DNA of 23,619 nucleotides, taken from the IMG/VR virus record IMGVR_UViG_3300045136_000266, positions 1 through 23,619 of that record; one strand, 5' to 3'. This DNA is from a virus. The notes under the pieces are model-generated. The model had not been told where the DNA came from. It worked only from the letters and a program-made list of their open reading frames with translations, and ran no database searches. The position numbers and the translations under genes were made by a program. Below are positions 3,895 through 18,652 of this stretch, one piece after another. How positions within the stretch are numbered: position 1 is the first letter of the stretch; each line of letters starts with the position of its first letter.

Positions 3895-4209
3895 CTACGC
3901 CTTTTTCTTCCAGCCCCAGCTTGGCTTATAGGCGCGGAAGGTACCTTTCGCGGTCACCTTAAGGTACTGTTCCTCCCCCTTAAGAAGCCGGTAGGCGTAG
4001 TTCCGCCGGTTAAACTGCTTGCGGAACTGGGCGTCAGTCCTCGCCCGCCGAGAGACCTCGCCGGCTGTTAGCGTACCGGCCGTCGAGAGTAGCTCGCGGG
4101 CGCGGCCGAGGACAATAAGTGCCGCCGCCTGAATCCGCTTAGCTAGCTCCGCCTTGATCGCGGCTTTGACCGCATCGCCGTTCCACTCAGACTGTACGAT
4201 AGGCGCCAC
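3895..4209 (-). CDS. gp10-like N-terminal helix protein (split gene, part 1)
   Basis: A 104-residue protein starting at GTG 4207-4209, 2 bp after the previous TAA; its SD is the GGAG inside the last codons of that gene. Longer in-frame extensions lie within the upstream coding sequence and are rejected. The start, MAPIVQSEWNGDAVKAAIK followed by a helix ending IVLGRARELLS, matches the N-terminal helix of gp10-family neck proteins as I know them. After that it diverges into a basic tail (FRKQFNRRNYAYRLLKG and AYKPSWGWKKKA). The PGEPP half follows in the next gene. Function as a separate subunit is inferred. Confidence 0.7.
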   Translation of the reverse strand: MAPIVQSEWNGDAVKAAIKAELAKRIQAAALIVLGRARELLSTAGTLTAGEVSRRARTDAQFRKQFNRRNYAYRLLKGEEQYLKVTAKGTFRAYKPSWGWKKKA

Positions 4210-8404: not shown

Positions 8405-9964
8405 CTAGGCGAGATCGTCTAAGGATAGCTGCTGCGAGAGCGATACAGACGCCTCTTGATTCGCGGCCTTTAGGGCGGCGAGGAGCTTCGCGCGGATCGG
8501 GCCGAGTACGCCGACCTTCGTCTTACCGGAGGCGTTTACCCCGTACTGGCCAGCGAGCGCCTTAAGCTCGCCGAGGTTTAGTCCGGCAACGAGAGCTTTT
8601 AAGGCGGACTCGAGGGCCTCGGCCGTCGTCTTGCCGGCCTCGGCGTCGGCGTGAAGCGCCGAGAGTGCGGCGAACGCGTCAAGGACTTTCTGTAAGTCAA
8701 CGGCGTCCGGATCCGGCGCTTCGGCGAGCGACGGCGGGAGCACAGCCTCGATATAGCCGCGAATCGCCGCTAGAGCGGCTTTCTTCGTCTGATGCGAACC
8801 AAGGTTAAGCCGTTCCGCGAGCAGGATCGCTTCGGCCGTCGTTAGGTTTTTGCCGGCGTAGGCAACCGCCTCTTTGATCCAGAGCTTATCGACCTTGCCG
8901 GCGGCGGCCTGGGCACGCCACTCCGCAATTTTCGCCTCCCATTTGAGGATATTCGCCGGGGCGGACGGCGTATCCGGGGCGTCCGGGATCGCCGGGCCGG
9001 CCGGGGCATCGTCCGAGAGGTCGAGGCCGGGTAGAACCCGAGGCCACGGCTTCGCCGGCTCCGGTATCGGGACCGTTACGCCCTCTGGCGGGACGTAGAC
9101 CTTCCCCGGTTTCGGGTTAACGAGCGTCGGTCCCCAGGCTACCGCCGGCGGGCCGCCGTACTCCGGAAGGAGGATCGGGACGACGCTACACTGACAGTGA
9201 GGGTGAAGCGGCGGAAACCGAACCTGACTATAGTCCGGGTGATCCCCGACAACCGCAAACGCCTGATGCAGTTTTGCCGTCCGGGCCTCGGCGGCAACCA
9301 TCAAACACATCGGGCACGCGTCGGCGGACACAAGCCACTGCCAGCCGGCAACAACCCCTGACTCGATTGCGGATAGCTCCCCGGCGGCGTGAAACGCTCG
9401 AGCGGCCTCGGTCGCGGCGATCCGCCGGGCACGCCAGGTCTCGGCCTCCGTAAAGACCGCCTTCACTCGTCGCGTTAGCTCGCGGACTTCCTCCCCCCGG
9501 CCGACGAGGCCCTCGACTAACTCGCGGCGCAGCCGCTCGAGCGCCTCGTCGATCGCAAGCTGCGTCGTCGCGTTCGTCGAGGCGGCGAAGGTAAAGGCCG
9601 CCTTGGCGATTACGGTTTTTAGATGTGGATCGGTAACGCGCCACTCGTCCGGGTCAAGGCCGATCTTAGCGCGGAGGGTTTTGCCGCCGGCGTCGTAGTA
9701 GGTCGATAAGACCGGTGCGATTGCCCGCGCGGCCGGATCATTGTAGTCAGCGAGCGACGGGAAGGCCGTTGGCGGCGGGATTCCGAGCGATGGGTCCGTG
9801 CCGGCGATCGCGGAGAGGAAATCCTTTTTCTGTTTCGCTGTTAGCTTCCGGAGGACCCGGTAGAGGGCAGCGCCGCCGGGCAGCCCGTAGGTATTTGCCT
9901 CCGTATCCGGGCCGCTAGCGGCCCGATCTGCTGACCGGAGGTCAGCCGCGTCGAGGTCAAGTCG
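8405..9964 (-). CDS. Minor head (SPP1 gp7 / Mu F-like) domain, expressed by -1 frameshift from the portal frame
   Basis: The frame is open from the stop at 10055-10057 down to 8405 but has no ATG, GTG or TTG until a GTG at 9464-9466, which would remove the first 166 residues. The sequence upstream of that GTG is convincing protein (GLPGGAALYRVLRKLTAKQ, then a helix AIDEALERLRRELVEG), so the gene probably begins by frameshift from the portal at 9964-9970. The core of the gp7/Mu F fold follows: FTEAETWRARRIAATEAARA and the zinc-type motif CPMC...HPHCQC (Cys51, Cys54, His90, Cys91, Cys93 counted from the GTG). The C-terminus holds a Pro-rich linker and two SAP/Rho_N-like helix pairs (LNLGSHQTKKAALAAI and YGVNASGKTKVGVL). 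Coordinates given are those of the shifted part, 519 residues. Confidence 0.8.
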   Translation of the reverse strand, partial: RLDLDAADLRSADRAASGPDTEANTYGLPGGAALYRVLRKLTAKQKKDFLSAIAGTDPSLGIPPPTAFPSLADYNDPAARAIAPVLSTYYDAGGKTLRAKIGLDPDEWRVTDPHLKTVIAKAAFTFAASTNATTQLAIDEALERLRRELVEGLVGRGEEVRELTRRVKAVFTEAETWRARRIAATEAARAFHAAGELSAIESGVVAGWQWLVSADACPMCLMVAAEARTAKLHQAFAVVGDHPDYSQVRFPPLHPHCQCSVVPILLPEYGGPPAVAWGPTLVNPKPGKVYVPPEGVTVPIPEPAKPWPRVLPGLDLSDDAPAGPAIPDAPDTPSAPANILKWEAKIAEWRAQAAAGKVDKLWIKEAVAYAGKNLTTAEAILLAERLNLGSHQTKKAALAAIRGYIEAVLPPSLAEAPDPDAVDLQKVLDAFAALSALHADAEAGKTTAEALESALKALVAGLNLGELKALAGQYGVNASGKTKVGVLGPIRAKLLAALKAANQEASVSLSQQLSLDDLA

Positions 9965-11418
9965 AAAGGGTCGCGGGCGGCCTCCCGGCCGCCCGGGTAA
10001 GTGACGACAATCGCCGCTCGCAGGCCGTCGCCTGCGGACGCGACGCTTACCGGATCAGAGGCGGCGGTAGATGCCTGGTGGGCAGCCGCGCTGGCCTGAT
10101 CGTAGTAGATTTCGTCTTCCGGGCCGGCCTCCTGCCCGATCAGCCGACGGTACTCTGCTCGCTTAATGCCCTTATAGACCGCGTAGGCCTTACCGGCCCG
10201 ATCCCAGACGGCATCCTGAGCGTCCGCAAGGCAGGCAACTCCGTCGTAGCAAAACCGGAACCGATGCCCTTTCGGCGGCATACCGGGCCGCCCGGTTAAG
10301 TGTCGGGTCAGAGCGGCAGCGAGCGACTTCTGTAGCGGTATAAGCAGTTCGTCATAAAGTCCACGCCGCGCCGCCTCCATATTGGCGTAGGTCTTATGGT
10401 CGGCGCCGGAGGATAGGCCGGCGATCATCGGGTTAACGCCGGTTAGCGCACAGACCTGATCTTCGAGCCGGGCCGGAATCCGGTCAAGCGCAAGCTGCTC
10501 TGGTGAGAAGCCGACCGGAGTAACGGATACCGGGTACGTCGGGACAAACGGCTTGCCGCGATTTTCGCCACCAAGCTGCTCGATCCAGGTCGCTTTAAGG
10601 CTACGTGCCTGATCGCCAGCGATACCGAGCGATTGTGCGGACCCAGCCGGCGCGATGATAACGGACGGAACGCCGGCGTTCCGAAGGATCTGAGCGACGA
10701 AGCCGTCCGCCTCATTTAGGCCGCAGAGGACGCGGGCGGCGGCGGCTTTATACGCCGAGAGGCCCTTCCGCGGGTTGCGCGGATCGAGCTTCCCCCATCG
10801 CCAGTGAAGAACTGACTCCGGCGGAAGTACGTATTCCCGCCCGTTGACACGGTAAAGGTAGCCGCCGACGAACTGCGTACCGGATCGGTCCCAGACCGGC
10901 TCAATCATCCAGTTTGGGCACCACCAGTGCTCGACGGGTACGCCTGCTTCGGAAGTGATCAGCAGTGAGTAGGCGTTGCCGTCAAGGACAGCGAAGGTGG
11001 CCATCGCCGCTGACCAGGTGTAGTAGTCGTAGCCGGGATTCGGCCCGGCCTTAAAGAGCATCGCTCCGGGGTCGCCTTCGATCGGGACCTCTTCAGACTC
11101 TGACCTAGCGGGACCGACGACCTGCAGGTCCGGCTCCGGGAAGTTGGCCTCGATAACACGGAGGACGGCGGCTGTCGCCGTATTACGCCACGGATCGCCC
11201 GCCTCAGCCTCATAGTTAAAGTCCGCCCCCGGGGAAAGGCCGAGGATGTCGCTAAGCATAGCGCGGGCGTCGCCGAGGCCGTACGACCCGCTGCCGTCAT
11301 GAAACGCAGCCGGGACACTAATCCCGGCGCCAGGTGCGGCTTTAGCGCCAAACGTTGCGGCGATCCAGTCGCGGGCGGCGGCGTCGTCGAGGCGGTCGGC
11401 GGGAGAACGTCTCGGCAC
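9841..11418 (-). CDS. Portal protein (HK97 family)
   Basis: The zero-frame product is 525 residues, starting at GTG 11416-11418 with AAGAAGGG 7 nt upstream. It carries the usual portal features: YDYYTWSAAMATFAVLDGNAYSLL, then HWWCPNWMIEPVWDRSG, YLYRVNGREYVLPPESVLHWRWG (the strand before the crown and stem), GLSAYKAAAARVL, and a C-terminal DQVCALTGVNPMIAG with TYANMEAARRGLYDELLIPLQKSL. The twelve subunits would form the DNA entry vertex. After residue 485 the zero-frame tail (DLTSTRLTSGQQIG onward, 40 residues) looks unlike folded protein, while the -1 frame continues into the minor head domain. See the frameshift signal at 9908-9986. Confidence 0.92.
   Translation of the reverse strand: MPRRSPADRLDDAAARDWIAATFGAKAAPGAGISVPAAFHDGSGSYGLGDARAMLSDILGLSPGADFNYEAEAGDPWRNTATAAVLRVIEANFPEPDLQVVGPARSESEEVPIEGDPGAMLFKAGPNPGYDYYTWSAAMATFAVLDGNAYSLLITSEAGVPVEHWWCPNWMIEPVWDRSGTQFVGGYLYRVNGREYVLPPESVLHWRWGKLDPRNPRKGLSAYKAAAARVLCGLNEADGFVAQILRNAGVPSVIIAPAGSAQSLGIAGDQARSLKATWIEQLGGENRGKPFVPTYPVSVTPVGFSPEQLALDRIPARLEDQVCALTGVNPMIAGLSSGADHKTYANMEAARRGLYDELLIPLQKSLAAALTRHLTGRPGMPPKGHRFRFCYDGVACLADAQDAVWDRAGKAYAVYKGIKRAEYRRLIGQEAGPEDEIYYDQASAAAHQASTAASDPVSVASAGDGLRAAIVVTYPGGREAARDPFDLTSTRLTSGQQIGPLAARIRRQIPTGCPAALPSTGSSGS
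9908..9986 (-). other. Programmed -1 ribosomal frameshift signal, portal to minor head
   Basis: Reading the minus strand: GGGAGG (9986-9981) acts as an internal SD-like element. After 10 nt comes the slippery heptamer CCCTTTC (9970-9964). It lies in the portal frame as C CCT TTC (codons 484-485), which is the X XXY YYZ phase. After 17 nt follows a perfect 7-bp hairpin GCTGACC-TCC-GGTCAGC (9946-9930), and then an 18-nt perfect palindrome centred on CTAG (9925-9908). A -1 slip moves ribosomes exactly into the minor-head frame, giving 485 + 519 = 1004 residues. The 17-nt gap to the hairpin is longer than in well-known bacterial sites, so efficiency is uncertain. Confidence 0.7.
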
Positions 11419-15092: not shown

Positions 15093-15407
15093 ATGGTACA
15101 TAAAGTCTCGCATGATATCATTGTTGAGGACGCAGCCGGGCAGCTACTCTGTCGCGATACGCGGATCGGAGTACGCTCGGCTCGCGAAGCCGCCGAGCGG
15201 CTTATGACTTCGACCCCGCGGGCGTGCCGGGTTAGCATTACGTCGAACCTAACCGGCGCGATCCTCGGCGTATGGGTCCGCCTCGGCGGCGACTGGCGGC
15301 GGTCGTTCGATTCGCCCTACGGGCTACGACCGCACGGCGACCCAGCCGGCGAACTGAAGCGACCGCCAGAACGGTACGATAAAGGCGTATCCGGCGGCTC
15401 GGAGTAG
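15093..15407 (+). CDS. Small protein of unknown function
   Basis: A 104-residue protein starting at ATG 15093, with AAGGGA 6 nt upstream. It reads MVHKVSHDIIVEDAAGQLLC, then a helix SAREAAERLM and strands CRVSITSNLTGAILGVWVRLGGDW, followed by a polar, probably disordered end. No family is recognised. It follows the acidic gene after 54 bp and carries the same hairpin in its leader, so both are probably co-regulated. Its last 28 codons overlap, tail to tail, with the end of the CmoA-like gene on the other strand. That end is the conserved side of the overlap, so this C-terminus is likely the more flexible one. Confidence 0.68.
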   Translation: MVHKVSHDIIVEDAAGQLLCRDTRIGVRSAREAAERLMTSTPRACRVSITSNLTGAILGVWVRLGGDWRRSFDSPYGLRPHGDPAGELKRPPERYDKGVSGGSE

Positions 15408-16043
15408 CTCGACGTTACCGGCTGGCGTTAGGGGGACGAGGACGTTCTCGAGCGCCCGCCGCTTCGCCTCGATCGCCGCGGCGTTATAGCCGGCCGCGGC
15501 CTTTTCGGCGAGGTAGAGGCTTACGAGCAGGTCGTCGGCCTCGGCGTTTGCCTCGATCGTCTTTTCGACCAGGATCAACGCGCCGCCCGGTACGGTCGTC
15601 CGCCAGGCCTCGCGCAGAATACGCGGCCGATACTCGACCGGGATAAATTGAAGCGTCAGGACGGCAAGCGTAAGGCTCGCTTTTGCCGTCGGGTAGCCGC
15701 GGCGAAGGTCAAAGTCGCGGACCTCGACAAGGCCCGTCTGAATCGGCCCGGCAAGTTCCGCCCGGGCAGCCTCGGTCATCGCCGGGGAGTTATCGAGCAG
15801 CACGTACCGATTCGTCGCCCCGAACTCCCGCCAAAAGGGCACAATCATATCGCCCCGGGAGCACCCGAGGTCGACAATATCGGTCCCCGGCCGGACAAAG
15901 CGACGGCCGACGCGAAGGACTAGCTCCCGCATCCGGTCGAGGTCAGGGATCGACCGGCGGAGCATATCCGGGAAGCACGCGGCGACCTCGGCGTCGAAAG
16001 TCCATGCCCCGGAGGGCACCACGCAGTCGATTACGGAGTCCAT
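15324..16043 (-). CDS. CmoA-like (carboxy-SAM synthase family) methyltransferase-fold enzyme
   Basis: A 239-residue class I SAM-fold protein that matches CmoA along its length as I remember the E. coli sequence (247 residues): AWTFDAEVAACFPDMLRRSIP near the start, motif I DIVDLGCSRGD (55-65), LLDNSPAM (82-89) for the acidic loop, LTLQFIP (129-135), PGGALILVEKTIE (152-164), and GYNAAAIEAKRRALENVL (185-202). The last segment contains Arg195, which aligns with Arg199 of E. coli CmoA, the residue that holds the carboxylate of carboxy-SAM. CmoA makes carboxy-SAM from SAM and prephenate, normally for the tRNA enzyme CmoB, which is absent here. The ATG overlaps the HAD gene by 13 bp. A user of the product is probably encoded nearby. 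Confidence 0.82.
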   Translation of the reverse strand: MDSVIDCVVPSGAWTFDAEVAACFPDMLRRSIPDLDRMRELVLRVGRRFVRPGTDIVDLGCSRGDMIVPFWREFGATNRYVLLDNSPAMTEAARAELAGPIQTGLVEVRDFDLRRGYPTAKASLTLAVLTLQFIPVEYRPRILREAWRTTVPGGALILVEKTIEANAEADDLLVSLYLAEKAAAGYNAAAIEAKRRALENVLVPLTPAGNVELLRAAGYAFIVPFWRSLQFAGWVAVRS

Positions 16044-16477
16044 GCGGCAATCGCTTCAAGGACGGTCTGCTCGTCGGTCGCGGCGAGCGACCGTATGCCT
16101 GCCTCGGCGTACTTAAGCCGGGTCTTCGGGTTCGACTCCAGCCCGAGGTAGAGCCGGCCGTCATAGCCGAGCTTAGGCATAACACGCGTGACTAACGCGT
16201 GTAGTTTCGCTTCCGGTGGCGATAGGCCAAACTCGTTAAAAAACGCCCACTGCGGTTGCCAACCGGTTACATCAGCGATCCGGGCTAGTGTCGCATTCGC
16301 CCATCGGACCGGCCGGGCCGTCATTAGTACGGTTCGGTACCGGCGCGCAATCGCGACGAGCCACGAGCGGTAAGTCTCCGTCGCGATTCGCCTACTCATC
16401 GGGATGCGAGTCAAATCGCCGGGCGGCGTCTCAGCGAGGGTGTAGTTTAGGTCCAGGAGAAGGATCGGGCCGGTCAT
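16031..16477 (-). CDS. HAD-like hydrolase with altered catalytic motif
   Basis: A 148-residue small HAD-fold protein. Motif I reads LLLDLNYTLAE, with nucleophile-type Asp9 but Asn11 where phosphatases have the second Asp. Motif II is VLMTARP (Thr53). A Lys91 follows in PPEAKLHAL, and motif IV is LYLGLESNPKTRLKYAEAGI, where the usual acidic pair reads Glu-Ser. The fold is clear; phosphatase activity is uncertain because the second Asp normally acts as general acid/base. The gene overlaps the methyltransferase fusion by 47 bp and the CmoA-like gene by 13 bp, so the three are translated together and probably act in one pathway. Confidence 0.78.
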   Translation of the reverse strand: MTGPILLLDLNYTLAETPPGDLTRIPMSRRIATETYRSWLVAIARRYRTVLMTARPVRWANATLARIADVTGWQPQWAFFNEFGLSPPEAKLHALVTRVMPKLGYDGRLYLGLESNPKTRLKYAEAGIRSLAATDEQTVLEAIAAWTP

Positions 16478-18011
16478 CGTAGTCGCCCCACGAATCGATG
16501 CCGAGCCGGCGGCCGAACGCAGCTAAAGCCTCCTCGGCTAGTCCCATCCGCGTGCCGTCCGGGTACGGAAGGTCAAACTCGAAGAGGATTGCCTCCCGTA
16601 AACGATTATACTCTAACGGCCGCGGCTGTTCCGCGATTAGCGCAATCCGCCCTCCCTCTTGCTTGACCCGAACCCGATCGAAGGCGATCGAAAAGAGGTC
16701 GGCAAACTCCCGACTGGTAAAGTACTTCTGAGCCTTAGGCCGGCCTCGTAGGTCGCCGAGCGTTACGCCAGGCTCGTACGGGAAGAGAAACTTCGTATTA
16801 TGCGAGGTTACACGATCTAAGTACGCGTCGTCGCTCAGCGTGCTAGCGTACTGCGGCACCCGACGCGAATCGGTTGCCGCAAAGACACGAGTCGTTGGGC
16901 TACAGAGAGCAGCAAAAATCCGCACGATCGCCTCGCGGTCTTCCCGAAAAGGGACCGAGTTAAATACGGCGGAGCAGACGATCGAGGTCCACTGCACCCC
17001 GGAAGCAACATCGGCGAGGAACTCGCGGGCGAGCAAGATAGACGCCTTCCGGTCGATCTCTCCGTCGTCGCCTAGCCGGTACGGCTCGAACGGCGAGACC
17101 TGGATGCCGAGCGAGCGTAGGAGCTCTGTCTCGTGCAGGTGACCGGCGCCGAAGTCTACGATCCGCGGGCCGTATATCCGTCGCCAGGCGGCCATCTGCT
17201 TTGGGTCTGACGGGTTAAAAGCCGTCGTTTTTCTTGAAAGCAAAAACGTAAAGCCCGAGCCAAGAGTCCCCCTGCGGACCCGGCTTGCGCGGCGAAAAGA
17301 ATTGTAGCGGAGGAAGTCGGCGTACTCAGCGTTAATCGCAAAATCCATCGTAAGGAGGTTCGTCAGAACCTCGGCCAGTTCGCCCTTCTCCTCCGGAATT
17401 AAGACGACGGGGATCGAGGCCCGGTTAACACGGGCGGCGTAATGCAGGCGGCCACGGCCGTTAACGACGCGGAGCGTCTCGGCAGTCGCGACGATCGGCA
17501 TATCGACGCCCGCCCGAGCGAGCGTCCGCGCGCCGTTCTGCACCTGCATCGACCAGCGACCGTGATTTACGCGGACAAGATCGGCGACGGGTAGCGGCCG
17601 GGCGTTTAAGCACGCGAATCGCTCGTCCCCTTCGGCGTCCGGAATTGCGTCGAGGTCGATCGCCGCAATACGCTCAAGGAGCCGCTGCTCCATGTTTTGT
17701 CCGGTATCCGCTCCGCTCATATCGTTAGTCGAGCGGTTAAAGAGTAGGTTCCGCGCCATATACGCATTGCGGCCCTGCTCGACCGGAGCGATCGAAACCG
17801 GGACTTCCGAATAGCCGAGACGGCGAGCGACCGTTACACGCTGATGCCCAGAAACGATAACGCCAGAGGCGTCCGTATAGATCGGCAGGATAAAGCCGAG
17901 CTTGCGGAGCGATAGCTCTAGCCAGTCAAGGCGACGTGCGTGCGCCCTCCGAGGGTTCTGCGCAAACGGCCGTATCTGGTCGATCGGCACGAGCCGGATA
18001 TCGGTCGTCAT
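16431..18011 (-). CDS. Double ParB-fold / methyltransferase fusion protein
   Basis: A 526-residue protein starting at ATG 18009-18011, which overlaps the previous TGA as ATGA. Domain 1 (about 5-75) is a ParB/sulfiredoxin N-terminal fold: VPIDQIRPFAQNPR, then GVIVSGHQRVTVARRLG (GHQR at 55-58). Domain 2 (about 140-225) repeats the plan with a shorter signature, LRVVNGRGRLHYAARVNRASIPVVLI. Domain 3 (about 280-465) looks like a class I SAM-binding fold: RIVDFGAGHLHE as motif I, FEPY as the acidic loop after strand 2, and SIVCSAVFNSVP as motif IV. No DPPY/NPPY motif of standard DNA N-methyltransferases is present. ParB-fold domains can bind or hydrolyse nucleotides or cut DNA. The substrate is unknown. 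Confidence 0.78.
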   Translation of the reverse strand: MTTDIRLVPIDQIRPFAQNPRRAHARRLDWLELSLRKLGFILPIYTDASGVIVSGHQRVTVARRLGYSEVPVSIAPVEQGRNAYMARNLLFNRSTNDMSGADTGQNMEQRLLERIAAIDLDAIPDAEGDERFACLNARPLPVADLVRVNHGRWSMQVQNGARTLARAGVDMPIVATAETLRVVNGRGRLHYAARVNRASIPVVLIPEEKGELAEVLTNLLTMDFAINAEYADFLRYNSFRRASRVRRGTLGSGFTFLLSRKTTAFNPSDPKQMAAWRRIYGPRIVDFGAGHLHETELLRSLGIQVSPFEPYRLGDDGEIDRKASILLAREFLADVASGVQWTSIVCSAVFNSVPFREDREAIVRIFAALCSPTTRVFAATDSRRVPQYASTLSDDAYLDRVTSHNTKFLFPYEPGVTLGDLRGRPKAQKYFTSREFADLFSIAFDRVRVKQEGGRIALIAEQPRPLEYNRLREAILFEFDLPYPDGTRMGLAEEALAAFGRRLGIDSWGDYDDRPDPSPGPKLHPR

Positions 18012-18652
18012 GGCAGCCCGAGTCTCCGGCGGATCTCCCGCTCGATATCTGCTACAGCAAGACCAACCGCCCCGGTTACCTCCTCGTTCCATCGAAGGTA
18101 GTCGTCACGTGCGACTAGAAACCGGTAGTAACCGAAGAGCAGAATTACGTTATTCGGCATACGCGCGTCATCATCGGCTGGCTCTTCGCCGAAGTCTGCT
18201 ATCGGATCGGTGTTGACTCGGCGGCTTAGCTCAGCGATCTCCTCTTCGGTAAATCCGACCGCCTCCGGCTCCCAGTCGTCTTCTTCTCGGAGGCCGTCGA
18301 GCACAGCGGCGAGGACCCGTTCGTCCCACTCCGCCATGTCGCTCGTCCGGTTATCAGCGATCCCGTACATCGTTAGCTCTACGCCGCTAAGGTCAGAGCG
18401 GACGGCCGCAAGGTGTGTCCACCCGAGCGCCTTCGCTGCAGCGAGCGTCCCGTTGCCAGCGTGAACGATACCTGAGTCGTCAATAACGACCGGCTTCTGC
18501 TGACCGAACCGCGCAAGTGACCCGCGGATCGCTTCTAGATTCCGCGCCGGGTGCAACCGAGCATTCGCCGGATCAGGCGTTAGGCTGCCAATCGGGACGA
18601 GGAGGCTTTCGAGTACCGGGTTGCCTTTCCAGACAACGTCAGGATTAGCCAT
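18008..18652 (-). CDS. ParB/Srx-fold domain protein
   Basis: A 214-residue protein starting at ATG 18650-18652. Residues about 16-105 form a ParB-like N-terminal domain: LLVPIGSLTPDPANARLHP, LARFGQQKPVVID, GIVHAGNGTLAAAKALGW (signature GNGT at 66-69, where chromosomal ParB has GERR) and GIADNRTSD. The second half is acidic and helical, with a segment NNVILLFGYYRFLVARDDYLRW. Phage proteins of this type often sit beside DNA methyltransferases. Here it is the first gene of an overlapping four-gene cassette. It lacks the ParB DNA-binding HTH and is unlikely to be a partition protein. Confidence 0.85.
   Translation of the reverse strand: MANPDVVWKGNPVLESLLVPIGSLTPDPANARLHPARNLEAIRGSLARFGQQKPVVIDDSGIVHAGNGTLAAAKALGWTHLAAVRSDLSGVELTMYGIADNRTSDMAEWDERVLAAVLDGLREEDDWEPEAVGFTEEEIAELSRRVNTDPIADFGEEPADDDARMPNNVILLFGYYRFLVARDDYLRWNEEVTGAVGLAVADIEREIRRRLGLP

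Follow-up and report, generated by a model that had tools for sequence, protein, structure and literature searches.

The head gene region of this virus raises the question of how its MuF minor head protein is translated, given a reading frame that overlaps the end of the portal gene and offers no start codon ahead of its conserved sequence. The window (the whole stretch of DNA analysed) is a 23,619-base virus record, and its open reading frames and profile matches place terminase, portal, MuF, protease and major capsid genes in this order on the minus strand. Elsewhere in the window, a single ORF at 16431-18092 joins a ParB-N-like domain to a methyltransferase-like domain (phrog_5475, E=2e-97), and a further phage-encoded methyltransferase lies at 15324-16043 (annotated in PHROGs as a tRNA methyltransferase).

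Portal and MuF in two overlapping frames

The two frames in question, assigned from the ORF list and profile matches, are:

9841..11418, minus strand: portal gene, zero frame, 525 aa
8405..10054, minus strand: MuF minor-head frame, -1 relative to portal, open from 10054 with its stop at 8405

They overlap by 214 nt, close to the 210 bp given in the first-pass annotation. The portal protein matches Phage_portal PF04860 (E=1.2e-32; 113.8 bits, above the curated cut-off of 39.1), and the MuF frame is matched strongly by phrog_2662 and phrog_115 and at 25.4 bits by Phage_Mu_F PF04233 (E=2.5e-5), under the 29.6-bit cut-off. The profile phrog_2662 covers portal and MuF together, and both of its halves are matched in order but in two reading frames, with portal residues 119-465 corresponding to profile positions 106-441 of 717, and the MuF frame to positions 485-707 (E=3.7e-30). 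Scored by codon-usage log-odds in 30-nt bins, the portal frame leads as far as 9971 and the MuF frame from 9970 on, with the exception of the bin 9940-9911 where the portal frame is slightly higher; from the break, MuF stays open for 519 codons, and its codon usage is phage-like. Homology of MuF to its relatives begins at the NTYGLP block (9895; alignment A7).

Searches of IMG/VR with the MuF and portal alignments identified one close relative, represented by two contigs (3300010157_002024 and 3300010885_029793). These contigs, L013 and L034, come from two metagenomes and are identical over the 4269 bases where they overlap; no further member of the clade was found in these searches, and in an IMG/VR scan for the heptamer and its flanks the hits besides the relative (L115 and L117) proved to be unrelated DNA. 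The relative is 55% identical to the window phage in portal and 56-64% identical in MuF at the amino acid level, and its MuF scores 37.6 bits against PF04233, above the cut-off. Its portal homology runs to 'PGGxxxARDPF' and MuF then follows in the -1 frame, so that the break is the same as in the window phage. In L034 most bins ahead of the break give their highest score to the portal frame; a clear preference for the MuF frame sets in only about 120 nt past the break, since the linker has low scores in every frame.

A start-codon scan agrees with the earlier claim that ATG, GTG and TTG are all absent from the MuF frame between 10054 and 9466. The nearest start, GTG at 9466, is residue 168 of the stretch beginning at 9967 and falls within the Mu-F match (147-262), as well as within a helix (161-203) predicted in a modest structure model (mean pLDDT 71); a PDB search with this model gave no significant match. 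In L034 the first start past the break is a GTG 62 codons on, approximately 40 codons into the conserved part, and in both phages the interval from the break to conserved MuF sequence is free of start codons. Standard gene calling would break the gene in two and place the start of MuF wrongly at 9466.

The frame break and its surroundings

The features surrounding the break, all on the minus strand, are as follows:

9975..9994, minus strand: upstream hairpin, GGGCGGCC-GGGA-GGCCGCCC, with the SD-like element in its loop and 3' arm
9981..9986, minus strand: SD-like GGGAGG, 10 nt upstream of the heptamer; AGGGGG at equal distance in L034
9964..9970, minus strand: candidate slippery heptamer C_CCU_UUC (X_XXY_YYZ) in portal phase, CCT and TTC being portal codons; CCCTTTT in L034
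9908..9946, minus strand: downstream 7-bp hairpin (9946-9930) and 18-nt palindrome (9925-9908)

The position and exact portal phase of the heptamer, and the SD-like element ahead of it, are as first described. The counterpart heptamer in L034, at 5470, is also in portal phase, and the sequences at the break read GGGAGGCCGCCCGCGA-CCCTTTC in the window and AGGGGGACGCCCGCGA-CCCTTTT in the relative. In-phase heptamers of any kind are infrequent (four among the 485 codons of portal ahead of the break, none in MuF), and CCT is a rare proline codon, accounting for 8.4% of Pro codons in the window phage and 4.1% in the relative. In each phage the anti-SD energy of the SD-like element ranks within the top 0.3% of positions for strength, and the element is kept at -10 despite different encoded residues (REA vs QGD). 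When synonymous codons were drawn by usage with the amino acids fixed, an equally strong SD together with the heptamer arose in 1.1% of draws for the window phage (P 0.011) and in 0.07% for the relative (P 0.0007). In the one pair of phages to which the conservation statistics apply, and with the frame-break layout present in two lineages only, the longest exact nucleotide match of the portal alignment is 15 nt and reaches into the heptamer (the next is 11 nt; a run of 15 nt is equalled once in MuF); at identical amino acids 41% of codons are identical.

We propose that portal and MuF are joined by a dnaX-like programmed -1 frameshift, and on the sequence evidence we put the probability of this reading at roughly 0.86. 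A ribosome translating the portal gene would meet C_CCU_UUC with tRNA-Pro on CCU and tRNA-Phe on UUC, while GGGAGG, 10 nt upstream, would pair with 16S rRNA and promote a backward step of one base, after which CCC and UUU in the -1 frame could be paired anew by the two tRNAs. Without a slip, the ribosome would add 40 more residues, an unconserved tail, and stop at 9841 to give the 525-aa portal; ribosomes that slip would continue in the MuF frame to 8405 and give a 1004-aa portal-MuF protein (...ARDPF-RLDLD...; 485 + 519 aa). Both lengths are those predicted at the outset. The portal ring would then include some MuF-bearing subunits; the suggestion that these are few is not supported, as the efficiency of slipping is not computable. 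Both heptamers, C_CCU_UUC and C_CCU_UUU, are good shift sites in E. coli; the H_HH.U_UU.Y class is efficient in E. coli, with C_CC.U_UU.C named as a high-level site, and an upstream SD is an established stimulator of -1 frameshifting (PMC4066793).

The RNA structures near the break contribute less to the argument. The downstream elements described in the first-pass annotation are present, as a stem of GCTGACC/GGTCAGC at 9946-9930, 17 nt downstream of the heptamer, followed by the palindrome CGGGCCGCTAGCGGCCCG at 9925-9908. The proposal that they stimulate slipping is not supported and we have dropped it: they have no counterpart in L034, they fold at most slightly better than shuffled sequences (z about -1.5 in the window, ranging from -0.7 to -2.2 with the stretch folded, and about 0 in the relative), and the 17-nt gap puts them far from the slip site. 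The downstream hairpin and palindrome are thus probably not the stimulator. Downstream RNA structure accompanies many bacterial -1 sites, and the absence of a conserved one here counts against a frameshift. The upstream hairpin has 8-9 bp and sits about 4 nt before the heptamer; it folds well in the window (z -3.1, at -22.5 kcal/mol), but L034 retains no more than the outer stem (z -0.1), and whether the hairpin has a role in frameshifting is uncertain.

Relatives and competing explanations

Among the records searched, 44 of 85, or about half, have a single uninterrupted portal-MuF frame, counted from tables as a match reaching profile position 590 or beyond without a stop; a fused product is therefore acceptable to such viruses. 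One-gene fusions, whose existence had been noted at the outset, are also reported in Microbacterium phages (PMC7302621), and Arthrobacter phage Sonali has one that is annotated as such. The split relatives L002, L015, L017, L018, L021, L025, L026 and L056 have ordinary ATG or GTG MuF starts, and a frameshift was rejected for them; among the split relatives examined only the window phage and its close relative are without one. In L015 (3662-4137) MuF starts with a GTG at 3914, within the portal gene, and the two genes overlap by 220 nt in a +1 relation. Searches of bacterial genomes and of plasmids gave no relatives, and no relative of the frameshift type was seen among named phages.

The start positions in these split genomes, about 4 to 45 codons upstream of NTYGLP in alignment A7, together with the strong SD-like sequence, are what would be expected if MuF were a separate protein initiated at a non-standard codon near 9964-9890 by way of GGGAGG. 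We consider this unlikely. In neither phage does the MuF frame offer an ATG, GTG or TTG, or any near-cognate codon suitably spaced from the SD; the only candidates are ACG 9904 and CTG 9883 in the window and ATA at codon 32 in L034, none of them shared, and separate initiation leaves the conservation of the heptamer in portal phase unexplained. Less probable again is that the region is an evolutionary relic from which MuF is no longer expressed. The start codon is indeed absent and frameshifting is itself deduced from sequence, but the long open MuF frame has phage-like codon usage and, over its length, is about 55% identical to L034 in amino acids.

A true single-ORF portal-MuF gene that had acquired a new frameshift mutation, or an indel in sequencing or assembly, would look much the same, such genes being common among the relatives. 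The independent relative argues strongly against this, because frame relation, absence of a start, C_CCU_UUY and an SD at exactly -10 are all kept in it: the break falls at the identical codon in a phage only 55% identical, on contigs of two metagenomes agreeing at 100%, with the SD conserved and the rare CCT codon at the break. Sequencing error as the cause of the frame break is thus very unlikely. The smallest probability is that which we attach to slippage by RNA polymerase rather than the ribosome; the site in L034 includes a T6 run, but the CCCTTTC of the window contains no long homopolymer, and an SD conserved at -10 would be expected only where it is the ribosome that slips. Conservation of the heptamer and SD in a related phage, a check proposed at the outset, supports a programmed -1 frameshift.

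In L034 the programmed -1 frameshift would have a large product, with a fusion of about 2180 aa (498 + 22 + 1662 codons). The relative's MuF (L118:4001-8989, IMGVR 3300010885_029793) is about 1680 aa long with repeat-like stretches and a C-terminal 560 aa that have no Pfam or PHROG match; that of the window phage has only 519 aa. It is hard to imagine such a fusion on all twelve subunits of one ring, and its size would fit a need for ratio control. We lean, if only slightly, towards the view that this phage clade builds mixed portal rings by -1 frameshifting, with only some subunits carrying the MuF domain (and in L034 also a C-terminal extension of >1300 residues beyond MuF), thereby fixing the number of MuF or cargo domains per capsid.

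Comparison with known frameshifts and portal-MuF architectures

The -1 frameshift of E. coli dnaX uses an upstream SD, a slippery heptamer and a downstream hairpin, with 10 nt between SD and heptamer. The phage pair resembles it in having an SD-like element 10 nt upstream of an in-phase X_XXY_YYZ heptamer, but differs in the heptamer itself (C_CCU_UUY rather than A_AAA_AAG), in having no conserved downstream hairpin, and in that the shifted product would be the longer one. T7 gp10 is a frameshifted head protein. Like it and phage A2, for which a -1 frameshifted head protein is described (as cited in PMC5009743), the locus would give a structural head gene a frameshifted minor form, although in those phages the gene is that of the major capsid protein and here it is the portal. 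As in the lambda gpG/gpGT frameshift (Xu, Hendrix and Duda 2004, as cited in PMC6316719), a pair of morphogenesis genes would be linked by ratio-setting -1 slippage, although gpG and gpGT are tail chaperones and here the pair is portal and minor head protein. Ratio-setting frameshifts thus have precedents in the tail chaperones and major head proteins of phages; the one proposed here, a known kind of frameshifting with no earlier report found in the open-access literature for a portal and MuF pair, would set the number of portal subunits bearing the minor head protein.

The single-ORF fusions of phrog_2662, in Microbacterium clusters EA and EB, Microcystis phage Mwe-Yong1, Sinorhizobium phages Aussie and StopSmel, and Arthrobacter phage Sonali, carry both domains, likewise portal first and MuF second, in a single protein, but place MuF on every portal subunit and use no frameshift. 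In SPP1 the MuF protein gp7 is likewise linked to the portal gp6, and is portal-bound in few copies inside the procapsid (PMC6316719), but it is the product of a separate gene and the link is one of protein binding and not fusion. MuF proteins often bear effector domains (PMC5512222), and a coded ratio would offer a simple handle on the MuF copy number tolerated per portal ring. The frameshift case would connect three architectures of one module: single ORF, frameshift and separate genes.
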